Assembly (NCBI GenBank): GCA_015520705.1
Contig: WAPO01000115.1
Coordinates: forward strand, 1-33,989
Source of the DNA: Thermococcus sp.
Lineage (GTDB): Archaea; Methanobacteriota_B; Thermococci; Thermococcales; Thermococcaceae
DNA: 33,989 nt
Reading direction: 5' to 3'
The first letter of the stretch is position 1. The number at the start of each line of letters is the position of its first letter. The notes under the pieces are model-generated. The model was not told the DNA's origin. It made no database searches and worked only from the letters and a program-made list of their open reading frames with translations. Made by a program: the position numbers and the translations under genes. Shown here in pieces: positions 4,033-23,559 of the stretch.

Positions 4033-4041
4033 GTTTATAAC
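4033..4041. promoter_or_regulatory. Candidate SurR-type site GTTTATAAC upstream of hypC
   Basis: Matches GTTn3AAC; followed by n5 then GAT (2/3 match to the third element). Confidence 0.45.
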
Positions 4042-4105
4042 CTTAGGATTACGTTTCCAAAGGTTTATTTTACCCCTCCTGAATTTAGATATAGAGGTGA
4101 GGGGA

Positions 4106-5445: not shown

Positions 5446-5474
5446 GGCAACCTTTGGTTTAAAACTCCCCTCTA

Positions 5475-5491
5475 GTTTTTAACTTTTGGTT
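5475..5491. promoter_or_regulatory. Candidate extended SurR site GTTn3AACn5GTT just upstream of the hypF BRE/TATA
   Basis: GTTTTTAACTTTTGGTT matches the full extended consensus; the TATA-like cctataaatg follows at 5499-5508. A second GTTn3AAC (GTTTAAAAC) lies at 5457-5465. Confidence 0.7.
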
Positions 5492-5539
5492 TTAGAAACC
5501 TATAAATGCTCCAAAAGAGAAGAAAAAAGCGGTGAGAAG

Positions 5540-7852
5540 ATGAAAAGCTATCACATTCACGTGGAGGGCATAGTCCAGGGAGTTGGCTTCAGGCCCTTCG
5601 TTTATAGAATAGCGCATGAAAACGACCTCAGAGGATACGTTAAGAACCTCGGCGATGCCGGCGTTGAGATAGTGATTGAGGGGAAAGAAGAGGACATTAG
5701 GAAGTTTCTCAGAGATTTAAAGGAGAAGAAGCCGCCTCTCGCCAGAATTGAGAGGATAAAGAAAAAGGAAATCCCCCCACAGGGCTTTGACAGATTCTAC
5801 ATAGAAAAGAGCTCTCAGAAGGGAGCAGGTGGAGACTCCATAATCCCGCCTGATGTTGCTATATGCGATGACTGCATCAGGGAGCTGTTTGATCCGGCAG
5901 ATAAACGCTACATGTATCCCTTTATTGTGTGCACCAACTGCGGCCCGCGCTTTACCATAATTGAAGACCTCCCCTACGACAGGGAGAACACCACAATGAG
6001 AGAGTTTGATATGTGCGATTTCTGCGAGAGTGAATACAGAGACCCGCTGAACAGGAGATATCACGCCGAACCTGTCTGCTGTCCGGTCTGCGGGCCGAGC
6101 TACAGGCTCTACACGAACAGTGGAGAGGAAATAACAGGAGACCCCCTCAAAAAAGCCGCCCGGCTGATAGACGAGGGCTACATCGTTGCCATCAAGGGGA
6201 TCGGCGGAATTCATCTGGCCTGTGATGCGACGAACGAGCAGGCTGTTGAGGAGCTCAGGAGGAGGACGTTCAGGCCCCAGAAACCCTTCGCTCTGATGGC
6301 CAGAGATCTGGAGACCATCGAAAGTTTCGCCATACTCGATGAAGATGAGAGGACAGAGCTAACCAGCTACAGAAGGCCCATACTGATCCTCAGAAAGAAG
6401 GACCCATTTCCCCTTCCCGAGAAGCTCGCCCCGGGTCTGCACACAATCGGCGTTATGCTGCCTTACGCTGGAACACATTACATACTCTTCCACTGGTCAA
6501 AGAGCCCCGTTTATGTTATGACTTCGGCCAACTATCCCGGTCTGCCAATGGCGAAGGACAACGAGAGCGCATTTGAAGAGCTCAGGAATCTGGCAGACTA
6601 CTTCCTGCTCCACAACAGGAAGATTCTCAACAGAGCAGATGACAGCGTTGCCCGCTTCGTCAACGGAAAGAGGGCCGTTATAAGGCGCTCCCGTGGATTT
6701 GTTCCCCTCCCAATCGATATACCCTTCACCTACACAGGACTGGCGCTCGGGGCCGAGCTCATGAACGCCTTTGGGGTTGCCAAAAACGGCAGGGTCTATC
6801 CCAGCCAGTATATAGGCAACACAGGAAAATTAGAGGTGCTGAACTTTATGAGGGAGGCAATAGAACACTTTAAGAAGATACTCAGGGTCGGAAAGCTGGA
6901 TTTAGTAATAGCAGACCTCCATCCAACCTACAACACAACGAAGCTCGGCATGGAGCTGGCAGAGGAATCTGGCACGGAATTCCTGCAGGTTCAGCACCAC
7001 TACGCCCACGCAGCCTCGATAATGGCGGAGCACGGCCTTGATGAAATCATAGGAATAGCCCTCGACGGTGTGGGGTATGGAACCGACGGAAATGTATGGG
7101 GCGGAGAGGTGATATACCTCAGCTATGAGGATGTTGAGAGGCTTGCCCACATTGATTATTATCCGCTCCCCGGAGGCGATCTGGCGAGCTACTACCCGTT
7201 GAGAGCCCTCATGGGCGTGCTGAGCAAACTCTACCCAGTTGAGGAAGTGCGGGGGATAATTCAGAAGCACTGTCCCAGAGCCATTGAGAGCCTTAAATAC
7301 GGAGAGGTGGAGTTCAACGTCATACTGAACCAGCTCACAAGAGGGATAAACGTCTCATACGCCTCCTCAACGGGGAGAATTCTCGATGCCTTTTCAGTTC
7401 TCCTCAACGTCGCATACCGGAGAACGTATGAGGGAGAGCCCGCGATGAAGCTTGAGAGTCTCGCGCTCAAGGGCAAAAACGACCTCGGCTTCCGTGTGCC
7501 CGTTGAAGGAGAGACAATAAAAATCGAAGAGCTTTTCATACAGGCTCTGGAGAGCAGGGCAAACCCCGCTGACATAGCATACAGCGTTCATTTAGCCCTT
7601 GGAAGGGCTTTCGGAGAGATAGCAATTGAAAAGGCCGGGGAGTTCGGGGTCAGGGCAATTGGCATCAGCGGTGGAGTTGCCTACAACGAGCTGATTGTCA
7701 AGACCATCAGAAAGATGACCGAAACAAACGGCCTGAAGTTCTACTCGACATATGAGGTGCCGAGAGGTGACAACGGAATAAACGTCGGGCAGGCGTTCCT
7801 TGGAGGCCTATACCTCGAAGGGTATTTAAGTAGGGAAGACCTGATGATGTGA
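5540..7852 (+). CDS. hypF: Carbamoyltransferase HypF
   Basis: Acylphosphatase domain (HVEGIVQGVGFRPFVYRIA), CxxC zinc fingers (CDDCI...CTNCGP; CDFCE...CCPVCGP), YrdC and Kae1-like domains (QVQHHYAHAASIMAEHGL). Confidence 0.96.
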   Translation: MKSYHIHVEGIVQGVGFRPFVYRIAHENDLRGYVKNLGDAGVEIVIEGKEEDIRKFLRDLKEKKPPLARIERIKKKEIPPQGFDRFYIEKSSQKGAGGDSIIPPDVAICDDCIRELFDPADKRYMYPFIVCTNCGPRFTIIEDLPYDRENTTMREFDMCDFCESEYRDPLNRRYHAEPVCCPVCGPSYRLYTNSGEEITGDPLKKAARLIDEGYIVAIKGIGGIHLACDATNEQAVEELRRRTFRPQKPFALMARDLETIESFAILDEDERTELTSYRRPILILRKKDPFPLPEKLAPGLHTIGVMLPYAGTHYILFHWSKSPVYVMTSANYPGLPMAKDNESAFEELRNLADYFLLHNRKILNRADDSVARFVNGKRAVIRRSRGFVPLPIDIPFTYTGLALGAELMNAFGVAKNGRVYPSQYIGNTGKLEVLNFMREAIEHFKKILRVGKLDLVIADLHPTYNTTKLGMELAEESGTEFLQVQHHYAHAASIMAEHGLDEIIGIALDGVGYGTDGNVWGGEVIYLSYEDVERLAHIDYYPLPGGDLASYYPLRALMGVLSKLYPVEEVRGIIQKHCPRAIESLKYGEVEFNVILNQLTRGINVSYASSTGRILDAFSVLLNVAYRRTYEGEPAMKLESLALKGKNDLGFRVPVEGETIKIEELFIQALESRANPADIAYSVHLALGRAFGEIAIEKAGEFGVRAIGISGGVAYNELIVKTIRKMTETNGLKFYSTYEVPRGDNGINVGQAFLGGLYLEGYLSREDLMM

Positions 7853-7943
7853 GGAAAGGATTTAACTGAGAAACTCAGAATAAGGGTGGGGGATAACGGT
7901 TCCAATATGAGTCTAGGAGAATTGAAATACTGGGGGTGTGAGC

Positions 7944-8954
7944 ATGAAGATAAGACTCGAGCATGGTGCCGGCGGAGAGCTGATGGAAGAGCTCATAAGG
8001 AATATCATCCTGAAGAACCTCACGCTGAAATCAGCGGGCGGAATAGGACTTGATGCTCTGGACGACGGAGCAACGATACCCTTCGGCGACAGACACGTTG
8101 TTTTTACCATAGACGGGCACACCGTAAGGCCCCTCTTCTTCCCTGGGGGAGACATAGGTCGCTTAGCTATAAGTGGAACCGTGAATGATCTGGCTGTTAT
8201 GGGGGCAGAGCCTCTGGCCCTTGCGAATTCCATGATAATAGAAGCTGGCTTTGATGATACCAGCCTTGAGAAAATCCTCAAATCCATGGATGAGACGTCG
8301 AAAGAGGTTCCGGTGCCGATAGTCACGGGCGATACGAAGGTTGTTGAGGACAGGATAGGAATCTTTGTAATCACCGCTGGAATAGGCGTGGCTGAACGGC
8401 CTGTGAGCGATGCAGGCGCAGAGGTCGGTGATGCCATAATCGTAAGCGGGAGCATAGGGGACCATGGGATGGCGATAATGAGCTACCGTGAGGGGATTGC
8501 CTTCGAGAGCGACCTGAAGAGCGACGTTGCCCCGATCTGGGAGGTTGTTAAGGTCACTGCCGAGGCCGTTGGATGGGAGAACATCCACGCAATGAAAGAC
8601 CCGACAAGGGCCGGGCTGAGCAACGCTTTAAACGAAATTGCAAGGAAATCCGGGGTTGGGATTCTCGTGAGGGAAGGCGAGATACCAGTGAAACCCGAGG
8701 TCAGGGCGGCGAGTGAAATGCTCGGCATAAGCCCCTATGACGTGGCAAACGAGGGGAAGGTCGTGATGGTGGTGGCCAGGGAGTATGCGGAAGAAGCCCT
8801 CAAAGCCATGAGGAGAACAGAAAGAGGGAAAGATGCAGCAATAATCGGAGAGGTCATCGGCGAATACAGAGGAAAAGTGATCCTTGAAACAGGAATCGGC
8901 GGCAAGAGGTTTATGGAGCCCCCTGAAGGCGACCCGGTTCCAAGAATATGCTGA
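7944..8954 (+). CDS. hypE: Hydrogenase maturation protein HypE
   Basis: LEHGAGGELMEELI...; C-terminal PRIC ending in the substrate Cys. Confidence 0.96.
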   Translation: MKIRLEHGAGGELMEELIRNIILKNLTLKSAGGIGLDALDDGATIPFGDRHVVFTIDGHTVRPLFFPGGDIGRLAISGTVNDLAVMGAEPLALANSMIIEAGFDDTSLEKILKSMDETSKEVPVPIVTGDTKVVEDRIGIFVITAGIGVAERPVSDAGAEVGDAIIVSGSIGDHGMAIMSYREGIAFESDLKSDVAPIWEVVKVTAEAVGWENIHAMKDPTRAGLSNALNEIARKSGVGILVREGEIPVKPEVRAASEMLGISPYDVANEGKVVMVVAREYAEEALKAMRRTERGKDAAIIGEVIGEYRGKVILETGIGGKRFMEPPEGDPVPRIC

Positions 8955-10555: not shown

Positions 10556-10772
10556 AACCTTATGAACATACTATTCTTTTTTTAACCATCAATGACCAAC
10601 TATGAATTTTTACATTCATCAAAATACATGAAGGTCTATTCTTGTACAACTTCTGGTTTAACACCTTTGGTTAATTAACTTGATGTAATAGTTAAAAGCA
10701 TAAATCGAACATTTTAAATTATATAAGGGAATTAATGTCCAATTCTGGATATTTTTCAAGAGTTTTTGATTA

Positions 10773-15497: not shown

Positions 15498-15524
15498 TTC
15501 TCAAAATTTTTGAGGATGTTGCCT

Positions 15525-16010
15525 ATGGAACTCAATGAAATAATCGGAAATGCCAAGAGGATAGTTATCTGTGGTCTCGGAAATGAAAAATATGGGGACG
15601 AAGCTTTTGGGGTTATTGTTGCCAAGCTTTTAAAGCCCCTGATTCTCAATCCGGATGTCACTGTTATAGAATGCCATGAGATTCCCGAGAAACATGCAGG
15701 ACCCATAATCAGGTTTAAACCGGATTTACTCCTTCTGATTTCTCCCATTAACTATGGAGGGAAAGCCGGAAAGCTTGTGGTGGCTGATCCATGGGAAGCT
15801 CTCGAAGATCTACCTGAGACTCTCCAGCCACAGCTTAGAGTTACCCTTAATCATCTTAGAGAGCTGTTACCCGATACCAGATTTATGCTCCTCGGCTGTC
15901 AGATTAAAGACAAGAGAACATTCCGCAGATTAAGTCCTGAGGTAAAAGATAGTGCCAAAGCTCTTGTTCTTTCCCTCAAAAAGGAGCTTGAAAAAATTCA
16001 AACTTCTTAA
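15525..16010 (+). CDS. HycI-like hydrogenase maturation protease paralog, probably degenerate active site
   Basis: AKRIVICGLGNEKYGDEAFGVIVAK aligns with the intact paralog at 17258..17731, but the Asp and His ligand positions are Ser and Leu. Start could also be 15516 or 15510. Confidence 0.8.
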   Translation: MELNEIIGNAKRIVICGLGNEKYGDEAFGVIVAKLLKPLILNPDVTVIECHEIPEKHAGPIIRFKPDLLLLISPINYGGKAGKLVVADPWEALEDLPETLQPQLRVTLNHLRELLPDTRFMLLGCQIKDKRTFRRLSPEVKDSAKALVLSLKKELEKIQTS

Positions 16011-16017
16011 ACCAAAT

Positions 16018-16026
16018 GTTTTGAAC
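16018..16026. promoter_or_regulatory. Candidate SurR-type site GTTTTGAAC upstream of hypA TATA
   Basis: GTTn3AAC match immediately before the TATA-like tttttaag; hypA ATG at 16074. Confidence 0.45.
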
Positions 16027-16073
16027 TCCACAATTTTTAAGCTCCCAGGAATATTCTAAGTGGGGATGCAAAA

Positions 16074-16487
16074 ATGCACGAATGGGCCTTAGCTGATGGT
16101 ATTGTTAGAACAGCCATAGAATTTGCAAGGACGCACGGTAAGGATAAAATCCTCGGCATAAGGGTGGTTCTTGGGGAGCTTCAGGACGTCAATGAAGAGA
16201 TACTGAAGTTTGCGATAGACGAGATAAAGAAGGGCACTATTGCCGAAGATGCGGAGGTTGAGTTCGTCCTTGAGGAGGCCGAATTCAGATGCAGGAACTG
16301 CGGCCATGAATGGAAGCTCAGGGAGGTCAGGGAAAGCTTCAACGAGCGCATAAAGGAGGATATACACTTCATTCCTGAGGTGGTGCATGCCTTCTTGGCC
16401 TGTCCGAAGTGCGGGAGCAGGGACTTTGAGGTCGTTAAAGGTAGAGGGGTTTATCTCTCGGCCATAAAAGTCGAAGGGGAGGAGTGA
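16074..16487 (+). CDS. hypA: Hydrogenase nickel-incorporation protein HypA
   Basis: MHEWALADGIVRTAIEFAR; zinc motif CRNCGHEW...CPKCGS. Confidence 0.95.
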   Translation: MHEWALADGIVRTAIEFARTHGKDKILGIRVVLGELQDVNEEILKFAIDEIKKGTIAEDAEVEFVLEEAEFRCRNCGHEWKLREVRESFNERIKEDIHFIPEVVHAFLACPKCGSRDFEVVKGRGVYLSAIKVEGEE

Positions 16488-16490
16488 GCG

Positions 16491-17225
16491 ATGATAGGCG
16501 CTGTCGACCCCAGAATCAAGGCTATCGAAGCCCGTCTGGAGAAGGTCGGGAAAATAATCCCTGTCGTGAGCGGCAAGGGCGGCGTCGGGAAGTCGCTGGT
16601 CTCAACGACTCTGGCGCTGGCGCTGGCTGAGAAAGGCTACAGGGTGGGCCTCCTTGACCTCGACTTCCATGGAGCGAGCGACCACGTGATTTTAGGCTTC
16701 GAGCCGAAGGAGTTCCCCGAGGAAGATAAGGGCGTCGTTCCTCCGGAGATACACGGAATCAAGTTCATGAGCATCGTATATTACTCCGAGGACAGGCCAA
16801 CCCCGATGAGGGGGATGGAGATCAGCGACGCACTCATAGAACTCCTCGCCATAACGCGCTGGGACGAGCTTGATTATCTGGTCATAGACATGCCCCCAGG
16901 GATGGGCGATCAGCTCCTCGACATTCTCAGATTCCTGAGGAGGGGAGAGTTTCTGGTAGTTGCAACACCCTCAAAGCTGGCAGTTAATGTCGTCAGGAAA
17001 CTCATCATCCTTCTGAAAGAGCAGAACCTCAGGATTCTTGGGGTGGTTGAAAACCTCAGGCTCGATGATGAGGAGGACATCAGGAAGCTGTCGGAGGAGT
17101 TCGGCATTCCCTATCTGGCGGGGATTCCTCTCTACAGAGACCTCGAAGAGAAAGTCGGCAGTCCGGACGAGCTCCTGAGAACCGGCTTCGCGGAGAAGAT
17201 AAGGGAAGTCGCCGGGAGGATTTAA
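16491..17225 (+). CDS. hypB: Mrp/MinD-type P-loop ATPase, the archaeal Thermococcales-type HypB
   Basis: VVSGKGGVGKSLVSTTLALALAEKGYRVGLLDLDFHGASDHVILG; directly after hypA. Confidence 0.85.
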   Translation: MIGAVDPRIKAIEARLEKVGKIIPVVSGKGGVGKSLVSTTLALALAEKGYRVGLLDLDFHGASDHVILGFEPKEFPEEDKGVVPPEIHGIKFMSIVYYSEDRPTPMRGMEISDALIELLAITRWDELDYLVIDMPPGMGDQLLDILRFLRRGEFLVVATPSKLAVNVVRKLIILLKEQNLRILGVVENLRLDDEEDIRKLSEEFGIPYLAGIPLYRDLEEKVGSPDELLRTGFAEKIREVAGRI

Positions 17226-17257
17226 GGGCTTTTCTTTTTTCTTCTGGAGGTGGAAAG

Positions 17258-17731
17258 ATGAACATCACCGAACTCCTGAAAAACGCCAAGCGCATCGTCA
17301 TCTGCGGCATAGGCAATGAGAACAGAGGAGATGATGCCTTCGGTGTCGTGGTTGCGGAGAGATTAAAAAAGATTCTCCAGAAGCCCGGTATCATCGTGAT
17401 AAACTGCGGGGAAGTTCCGGAGAGCTACACAGGTGTCATAAAGCGCCACAGGCCGGATGTGGTTGTTTTCATAGATGCCATAGAATTTGGAGGAAAGCCC
17501 GGAGAGATTGTAACAGCAGACCCCGAGGGGACGCTGGGGAGTGCCGCCTCAACCCACAGCCTGCCTCTGAGGGTTCTGGTTCAGTATCTGAAGACAGAGC
17601 TGAAGGACACAGAATTTATCCTAATCGGCTGCCAGCCAAAGAGCACGGCCCTTTTCGGCGAGATGAGCGGGGAAATTAAAAAAAGCGCCGAAGAGCTCGT
17701 GAAAATGCTGGTCGATTCGCTGGAGGGCTAA
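17258..17731 (+). CDS. HycI-like [NiFe]-hydrogenase maturation protease
   Basis: IVICGIGNENRGDDAFGVVVAERL, FIDAIEFGGKPGEIV, ASTHSLPLRVLVQYL: conserved acid, Asp and His metal ligands present. Confidence 0.9.
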   Translation: MNITELLKNAKRIVICGIGNENRGDDAFGVVVAERLKKILQKPGIIVINCGEVPESYTGVIKRHRPDVVVFIDAIEFGGKPGEIVTADPEGTLGSAASTHSLPLRVLVQYLKTELKDTEFILIGCQPKSTALFGEMSGEIKKSAEELVKMLVDSLEG

Positions 17732-22183: not shown

Positions 22184-23509
22184 TTAAAACTTCAGAACCC
22201 TTGCCAGAACCACGAGGGGATCCCAGACAGGGGCAAAGGGAGGAGCATAGGCCATATCCGCAAAGAACAGGTCTCTGACTGTGAAGCCCGCCTGAAGAGC
22301 GGCCGCAAACGTGTCTATCCTCGGGAGAATCTCAGCCCCGACAGCCTGAAGACCGAGAAGCCTTCCTGTTTCCCTGTCCGCAACCCCTTTCAGCCATATA
22401 TCCCTCGATCCAGGATAATAATGCGGCCTCGTCTTTGCCTTTATGAAGGCGGTTTTGACATCGTAGCCCTCCTTCATTGCTTCAGCCTCGGTAAGGCCGG
22501 TTTTCCCTATCTCAAGGTCGAAGAACTTTGTAATCGAAGTTCCCAGAACGCCTGGGAATGTAAGATTCATCCCCGCAATATTTGCCCCAGCAACGTAGCC
22601 CATCTTGTTCCCAGGGGGTGCAAGGGGAACCCAGACCCTTCTGCCGGTTATCAGATGCCTCGTTTCAGCGACATCTCCGGCGGCATAGACGTTCTCAGCG
22701 CTCGTCTGCATCCTCTCATTCGTCCATATCGCTCCGGTCTCACCGATTCTAACGCCAAGCTGACGGGCCAGTTCAGTGTTCGGCTTGATTCCCGTGGCTA
22801 TAACAACCAGATCGGCCCTGTATTCCCCAGCATCCGTTACAACCCTTTCCACCCTTTCATTTCCCTCAAACCTGAGCGTCAGCTCCTCCAGTCTGAGATT
22901 CAGCCGCTTTGAAAGTTTCTCCTCAACTATGGCTGTGATTTCCTCATCAAAGCTCTTCCTCAAAATCCTCTCGCTCCTTCCTATCAGGGTTACATTTTTT
23001 CCCTGAGCAGCAAACGCCTCGGCCATTTCTATGGCAATATAACCCGTCCCGATGACGACGACATCTTTCACATCCGTCTTTTTCATGTATTCCTTAATCG
23101 CAACTGCATCCGGAGGCAGATCTGCTGTAAATACACCCTCCAGATGGCATCCCTCAATCGCGGGAACCTTCGGTGATGCTCCGTTTGCAAAGAGCAGGTA
23201 GTCCCATTCATACTTATGCTCCCCATCACTTTCCCGAACCCTCACCTCGCCCTCCGACACCTCAACAACATGCGCATTCAGATGAAGGTCTATTCCCCTC
23301 TTTTTGATGAAGAACTCCGGGGGATAATGCATGAGCTTCTCCTCAGGTGAGATTCCCTCAACAACATAGGGAATGCCGCAGGGAGCATGACTCACCCATT
23401 CCGTCGCTTCAAAGACCTTAACATCCCAGCTGGGCTTTAAGCGCTTAACTCTCGAAGCGGCACTCATTCCCGCTGCTCCGCCACCTATAATAACGACATT
23501 CTTGGCCAT
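22184..23509 (-). CDS. CoA-disulfide reductase / CoA-dependent NAD(P)H sulfur oxidoreductase-like flavoprotein
   Basis: [49 protein letters not shown] (active-site Cys context), [47 protein letters not shown]. Confidence 0.9.
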
Positions 23510-23527: not shown

Positions 23528-23544
23528 GTTCAGAACCATGGGTT
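23528..23544. promoter_or_regulatory. Candidate extended SurR site GTTn3AACn5GTT in the CoADR/NSR promoter, between TATA and start codon
   Basis: GTTCAGAACCATGGGTT matches the full extended consensus; minus-strand TATA-like ctttttaac at about 23541-23550; start codon at 23509. Confidence 0.7.
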
Positions 23545-23559
23545 AAAAAGATTAACGAC

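Follow-up and report, generated by a model that had tools for sequence, protein, structure and literature searches.

In this Thermococcus sp. contig, hypD and hypF are separated by 94 bp, within which two extended SurR-type sites lie in inverted orientation just upstream of the BRE and TATA box of hypF. The site pair is real, far above chance, and conserved, and it adds a further promoter to the already described SurR regulon. In all likelihood positions 5449-5491 form the SurR operator of hypF, and probably of hypF and hypE together, from which reduced SurR would activate transcription and sulfur would release it. Throughout, "the window" refers to the whole stretch of DNA analysed, 33,989 nucleotides in length.

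Results

A pair of inverted SurR-type sites precedes hypF

The features of the hypF promoter are as follows, the BRE, TATA, and ribosome-binding elements being assigned from the sequence.

5449-5491, no strand assigned: inverted pair AACn5GTTn3AAC-n9-GTTn3AACn5GTT; sole exact occurrence in the genome
5449-5465, minus strand: upstream extended SurR-type site, GTTTTAAACCAAAGGTT; exact match, core conserved in relatives
5475-5491, plus strand: downstream extended SurR-type site, GTTTTTAACTTTTGGTT; exact match, conserved in relatives
5493-5499, plus strand: BRE-like tagaaac of hypF
5501-5506, plus strand: TATA box of hypF, TATAAA
5531-5535, plus strand: ribosome-binding-site-like ggtga before the hypF ATG (5540); GGTG conserved in relatives
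5540-7852, plus strand: hypF, carbamoyltransferase for the cyanide ligands of [NiFe] hydrogenase (TIGR00143, E 1.9e-262)
7938-8954, plus strand: hypE, 85 bp 3′ of hypF (TIGR02124, E 1.9e-118)

A search of both strands of the window for GTTn3AACn5GTT recovered the downstream site as an exact match, and the sequences and coordinates that the preliminary description had given for it and for cctataaatg (5499-5508) are correct. The TATAAA begins 9 nt past the 3′ end of this site, which therefore occupies an activator-type position upstream of BRE/TATA. The second core reported earlier, GTTTAAAAC at 5457-5465, lies where it was placed but belongs to a complete extended site on the minus strand, which follows the hypD stop codon after 4 nt. 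The hypF promoter therefore has two extended sites on opposite strands, an inverted pair that spans 43 bp and whose cores are 18 bp apart. hypE is probably on the same transcript as hypF.

The sites exceed chance expectation

The window contains four exact extended matches, at 5449 (minus), 5475 (plus), 16010 (minus), and 23528 (plus), rather than the two counted previously; the shuffle mean is 0.17, and none of 100 shuffles reached four. Two of the four are at hypF, one precedes hypA, and one precedes the sulfur reductase candidate nsr. At least two extended sites arose in the hypD-hypF gap in 1 of 50,000 dinucleotide shuffles. The short core GTTn3AAC occurs 13 times in the window against 5.8 expected and is by itself weak evidence.

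The source genome, a draft of 209 contigs, was scanned by pattern searches with a reversed-pattern control. The bare extended motif gave 32 matches against 18 for the control, so that about half of the bare-consensus matches genome-wide are due to chance, and several fall inside genes. When GG is required before the last TT, 16 matches are left against 3 for the control; all except one (C62) lie outside credible genes, as judged by eye from the listing of open reading frames, and all four sites of the window belong to this strong class. The preliminary description would have been contradicted by a motif equally common in unrelated promoters, and on these counts it is not. Across the 2.27-Mb genome the inverted arrangement AACn5GTTn3AACn9GTTn3AACn5GTT occurs once with zero mismatches, and the runners-up have three, which is the level of the control.

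Conservation among hypF promoters of the family

Footprints were compared in the hypF promoters of 76 family genomes from six genera, the window genome included and the G025 promoter left out. The downstream long site is kept, at a conserved position upstream of BRE/TATA, in 75 of the 76, and these 75 promoters comprise 64 distinct blocks; in the sole promoter without it (L069), the core is interrupted by an additional T. This constancy of position supports the earlier proposal of a SurR-type activation site, such a position being tied to activation by published rules (PMC12162507). In 68 of 76 promoters a second core, GTTn3AAC, stands at exactly -18 relative to the downstream site, and 17 of 76 have the complete inverted pair of long sites. 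The consensus of the promoter is CCaaaGGTTnAAAACTCc.ct.t.GTTtTnAACTTTTGGTTTTngAAAnnTATAAA, and its arms are mirror images of one another (CCAAAGGTTnAAAAC / GTTTTnAACTTTTGG). Bases internal to the spacers are conserved as well (AACTTTTGGTT, CCaaaGGTT), and TATAAA with the preceding gAAA is among the most conserved columns of the 75 promoters. This conservation shows constraint, not the identity of the protein that reads the motif.

One genus group (g4: L145, L079, and L165) keeps the long site and lacks the upstream core in all three of its hypF promoters. In L145, apparently Palaeococcus pacificus, the long site is intact and the upstream core is broken (GTTTAAAAT). The named contigs of a second collection, which partly overlaps the first, have the same hypF block with the exceptions of L051 and L053. 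The long site before hypF is altered by one base in L053, and in L051 we found no recognisable SurR-like block upstream of hypF, which directly follows hypD; read-through from hypCD, driven by the hypC promoter, may be the source of hypF expression there.

The genome encodes a SurR ortholog

A SurR ortholog, whose presence the preliminary description had left to be verified, is encoded outside the window (L065:1196-1909, plus strand). Its best match in the PDB is 2qlz, "Transcription Factor PF0095" of P. furiosus (E 6e-89), and its CxxC is intact as CTEC in the N-terminal domain. The gene is divergent from a Pdo-like gene, pdo, for a glutaredoxin-like protein disulfide oxidoreductase (376-1056 of the same contig, minus strand), and this arrangement is reported to be conserved across Thermococcales (PMC12162507). 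Of 81 family genomes searched, 80 yielded a SurR, among them all 72 of good quality, and CxxC was present in 35 of 35 family SurR sequences read. The genome is rich in winged-helix regulators and has 31 HTH_20 matches; the first candidates among them (L032, L037, and others) are not SurR, and the ortholog turned up beside pdo.

In the surR-pdo gap of the window genome (L065:1057-1195; G000:C26), the long site upstream of surR looks degenerate (GTTTCGGGTCGGGTT; in relatives, for example, GTTTGCAACCTAAGGTT), and the core on the pdo side, GTTTATAAC, is retained. SurR may activate its own gene less strongly in this genome.

Other sites in the window and the genome

The remaining extended sites of the window and the genes beside them are these.

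16010-16026, minus strand: extended site upstream of hypA, ahead of TATA-like atttttaa (16033-16040); exact match, activator topology
16074-16487, plus strand: hypA, with genes for an Mrp/ApbC-like ATPase and a hycI-type protease after it
22184-23509, minus strand: CoA-disulfide reductase family gene, candidate NAD(P)H sulfur reductase (nsr); TIGR03385 above cut-off, E 4.7e-177
23528-23544, plus strand: extended site 19-35 nt before the nsr start codon; exact match, repressor topology

The upstream regions of hypA in relatives contain the extended site in 15 of 30 cases and the core in 24 of 30. The nsr site lies immediately downstream of a TATA-like ctttttaa (23543-23550, minus strand), with a 2-nt overlap, and in 29 of 30 loci, the window genome included, an extended site occurs at the corresponding position or close to it. 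The P. furiosus NAD(P)H sulfur reductase belongs to the CoA-disulfide reductase family. Curated models identify hypC, hypD, hypF, hypE, NikR, the CODH catalytic subunit, hypA, and hycI-type proteases, and several 4Fe-4S proteins are encoded between them. Beside the CODH cluster, hypA and the Mrp-like ATPase gene have a hydrogenase maturation protease gene on either side, and the two protease genes differ from each other (15510-17731).

Two further sequences in the window were considered. The core GTTTATAAC before hypC (4033-4049), weighed as a third hyp site, has no third half-site and may be either a SurR core or simply a TATA-like sequence (TTTATAA); it is also kept in L045, the only relative from which a hypC upstream region was recovered. 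Before cooF, at about 10657, GTTTAACACCTTTGGTT matches with one mismatch, and we make no claim for it because it is more than 100 bp from a TATA-like box. At 10655-10680, more than 100 bp upstream of the promoter of the CODH cluster, it is accompanied by GTTAATTAAC.

Elsewhere in the genome, extended sites adjoin MnhE-type first genes of Mrp-like membrane complexes (C15 and C102) and genes for a 2Fe-2S/FAD oxidoreductase (C108), a NuoE-like protein (C109), an iron-sulfur reductase subunit (C117), a DGC-domain protein (C121), and a radical SAM protein (C162); sites of the strong class precede MnhE-type first genes and redox genes. One promoter of an Mrp-type membrane complex (L003, C15:10732) has GTTTTTAACCTTTTGTTttagaaac followed by a TATA-like box and is nearly identical to the hypF block (GTTTTTAACTTTTGGTTttagaaaccTATAAA), but unlike hypF it has no inverted partner at -18, and its second site is 85 bp downstream, near the start codon.

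Discussion

The SurR regulon of Thermococcales, known from P. furiosus PF0095, is built on the motif GTTn3AACn5GTT; SurR activates hydrogenase operons and surR itself and represses nsr, pdo, and mbs/mbx. The locus described here resembles that regulon in its motif with a third half-site, in a SurR ortholog with CxxC and a divergent pdo neighbour, and in where the sites are placed, at hydrogen genes upstream of BRE/TATA and at nsr downstream of a TATA-like box. It differs in having two inverted extended sites at hypF, with cores 18 bp apart, and in the degenerate appearance of the long site upstream of surR. The founding SurR papers probably list hypF as a P. furiosus target already. In the later papers that we surveyed, we found no description of the paired operator, its fixed spacing, or its loss in g4.

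Published work on SurR associates sites upstream of TATA with activation and sites downstream with repression (PMC12162507; PMC12401011), a rule that predicts activation of hypF and hypA and repression of nsr when sulfur is lacking. Redox switch and position rule come from the literature; the sites, their positions, their conservation, and the SurR ortholog come from the present analysis. We envisage that, without elemental sulfur, SurR with its CxxC pair reduced would occupy both inverted sites upstream of BRE/TATA, most likely as two dimers or as one dimer with both winged-helix pairs engaged, and would promote hypF transcription by helping to recruit the basal machinery; hydrogenase-maturation capacity would then rise in step with hydrogenase. 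Sulfur would oxidise the CxxC pair, SurR would leave the DNA, and hypF expression would fall. SurR should also activate hypA, from its site upstream of TATA, and repress nsr, where the site is just downstream of, and overlaps, the TATA-like box. That SurR occupies the hypF promoter, that two dimers sit there next to each other, and which way the source organism responds are all points that we infer.

The suggestion that hydrogenase-associated genes are activated in the absence of sulfur finds agreement in one organism and disagreement in another. HypF falls on sulfur in T. onnurineus, with protein ratios of 0.26 (sulfur/CO), 0.41 (sulfur/formate), and 0.18 (sulfur/starch); the authors relate this drop to SurR, and hydrogenase-maturation genes are among the SurR-related, sulfur-down genes of their proteome study (PMC4463584). 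Palaeococcus pacificus hypF behaves in the opposite way, rising 10.8-fold on sulfur despite an intact long site; this species responds to sulfur unusually at other genes as well, MBH1 being up and pdo not (PMC6981617).

Three other explanations of the hypF block deserve to be weighed against activation by SurR. We give almost no credence to a chance match in an AT-rich promoter. The short core is indeed common, with 13 occurrences in the window, and matches to the extended consensus without GG are numerous in coding regions across the genome, but two sites in the gap were the outcome of a single shuffle in 50,000, and conservation in 75 of 76 promoters already refutes this reading. It is also very improbable that the conserved motif is read by a factor other than SurR, such as another ArsR-type or a TrmB-like protein, or that SurR shares it with such a factor. 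The motif alone names no protein, winged-helix regulators abound in the genome, and the sulfur response of Palaeococcus hypF is the reverse of that expected; against this, the hypF consensus is the published SurR motif, third half-site included, and the motif is found again between surR and pdo in relatives as well as before nsr and before MnhE-type first genes of Mrp-like membrane complexes, kinds of promoter published as SurR targets.

A more serious contender, possible in our view while still the less favoured reading, is that only 5475-5491 is functional and that the upstream site is a remnant or is kept for some other reason, for instance the shape of the DNA distal to BRE/TATA. The upstream arm is the more variable, with its outer half-site complete in only 17 of 76 promoters; its core is lost in all three g4 members, and a few other promoters have lost or altered the upstream block. 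Against this reading stand the core placed at exactly 18 bp in 68 of 76 promoters and the arm CCaaaGGTTnAAAAC, which mirrors the downstream arm GTTTTnAACTTTTGG. A further proposal strikes us as unlikely: that the inverted pair is a distinct SurR operator for two dimers, that its upstream half determines the sign or strength of the response to sulfur, and that loss of this half, as in the three g4 genomes sampled, rewires hypF from sulfur-repressed to sulfur-induced. The link between the lost upstream core and sulfur-induced hypF in Palaeococcus is suggestive only, as the correlation rests on one expression data set.

For SurR activation of hypF, the reading we prefer, the inverted pair and the Palaeococcus counter-example are the modestly interesting parts, and together they offer an inexpensive natural test of the wiring of archaeal activators. 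A single redox switch would tie hydrogenase maturation (hypF, hypA) to the sulfur reductase nsr, and since the sites take opposite positions within 18 kb, one locus would show both the activator and the repressor mode of SurR. Engineering of hydrogen production in Thermococcales would need to respect the control of hypF.

Close opposed pairs of extended sites occur in other settings. In the mbs promoter of T. barophilus, as at hypF, two long SurR motifs are close neighbours with opposite orientations; unlike those at hypF, they overlap, their published distances from the start being 87 and 95 bp, and their target is a repressed sulfur gene (PMC12162507, Table 2). In the window genome itself, a second close opposed pair (L019/L020, G000:C117:13999-14047) lies between the gene for the iron-sulfur reductase subunit and a small gene of unknown role, with its orientation reversed relative to the hypF pair.
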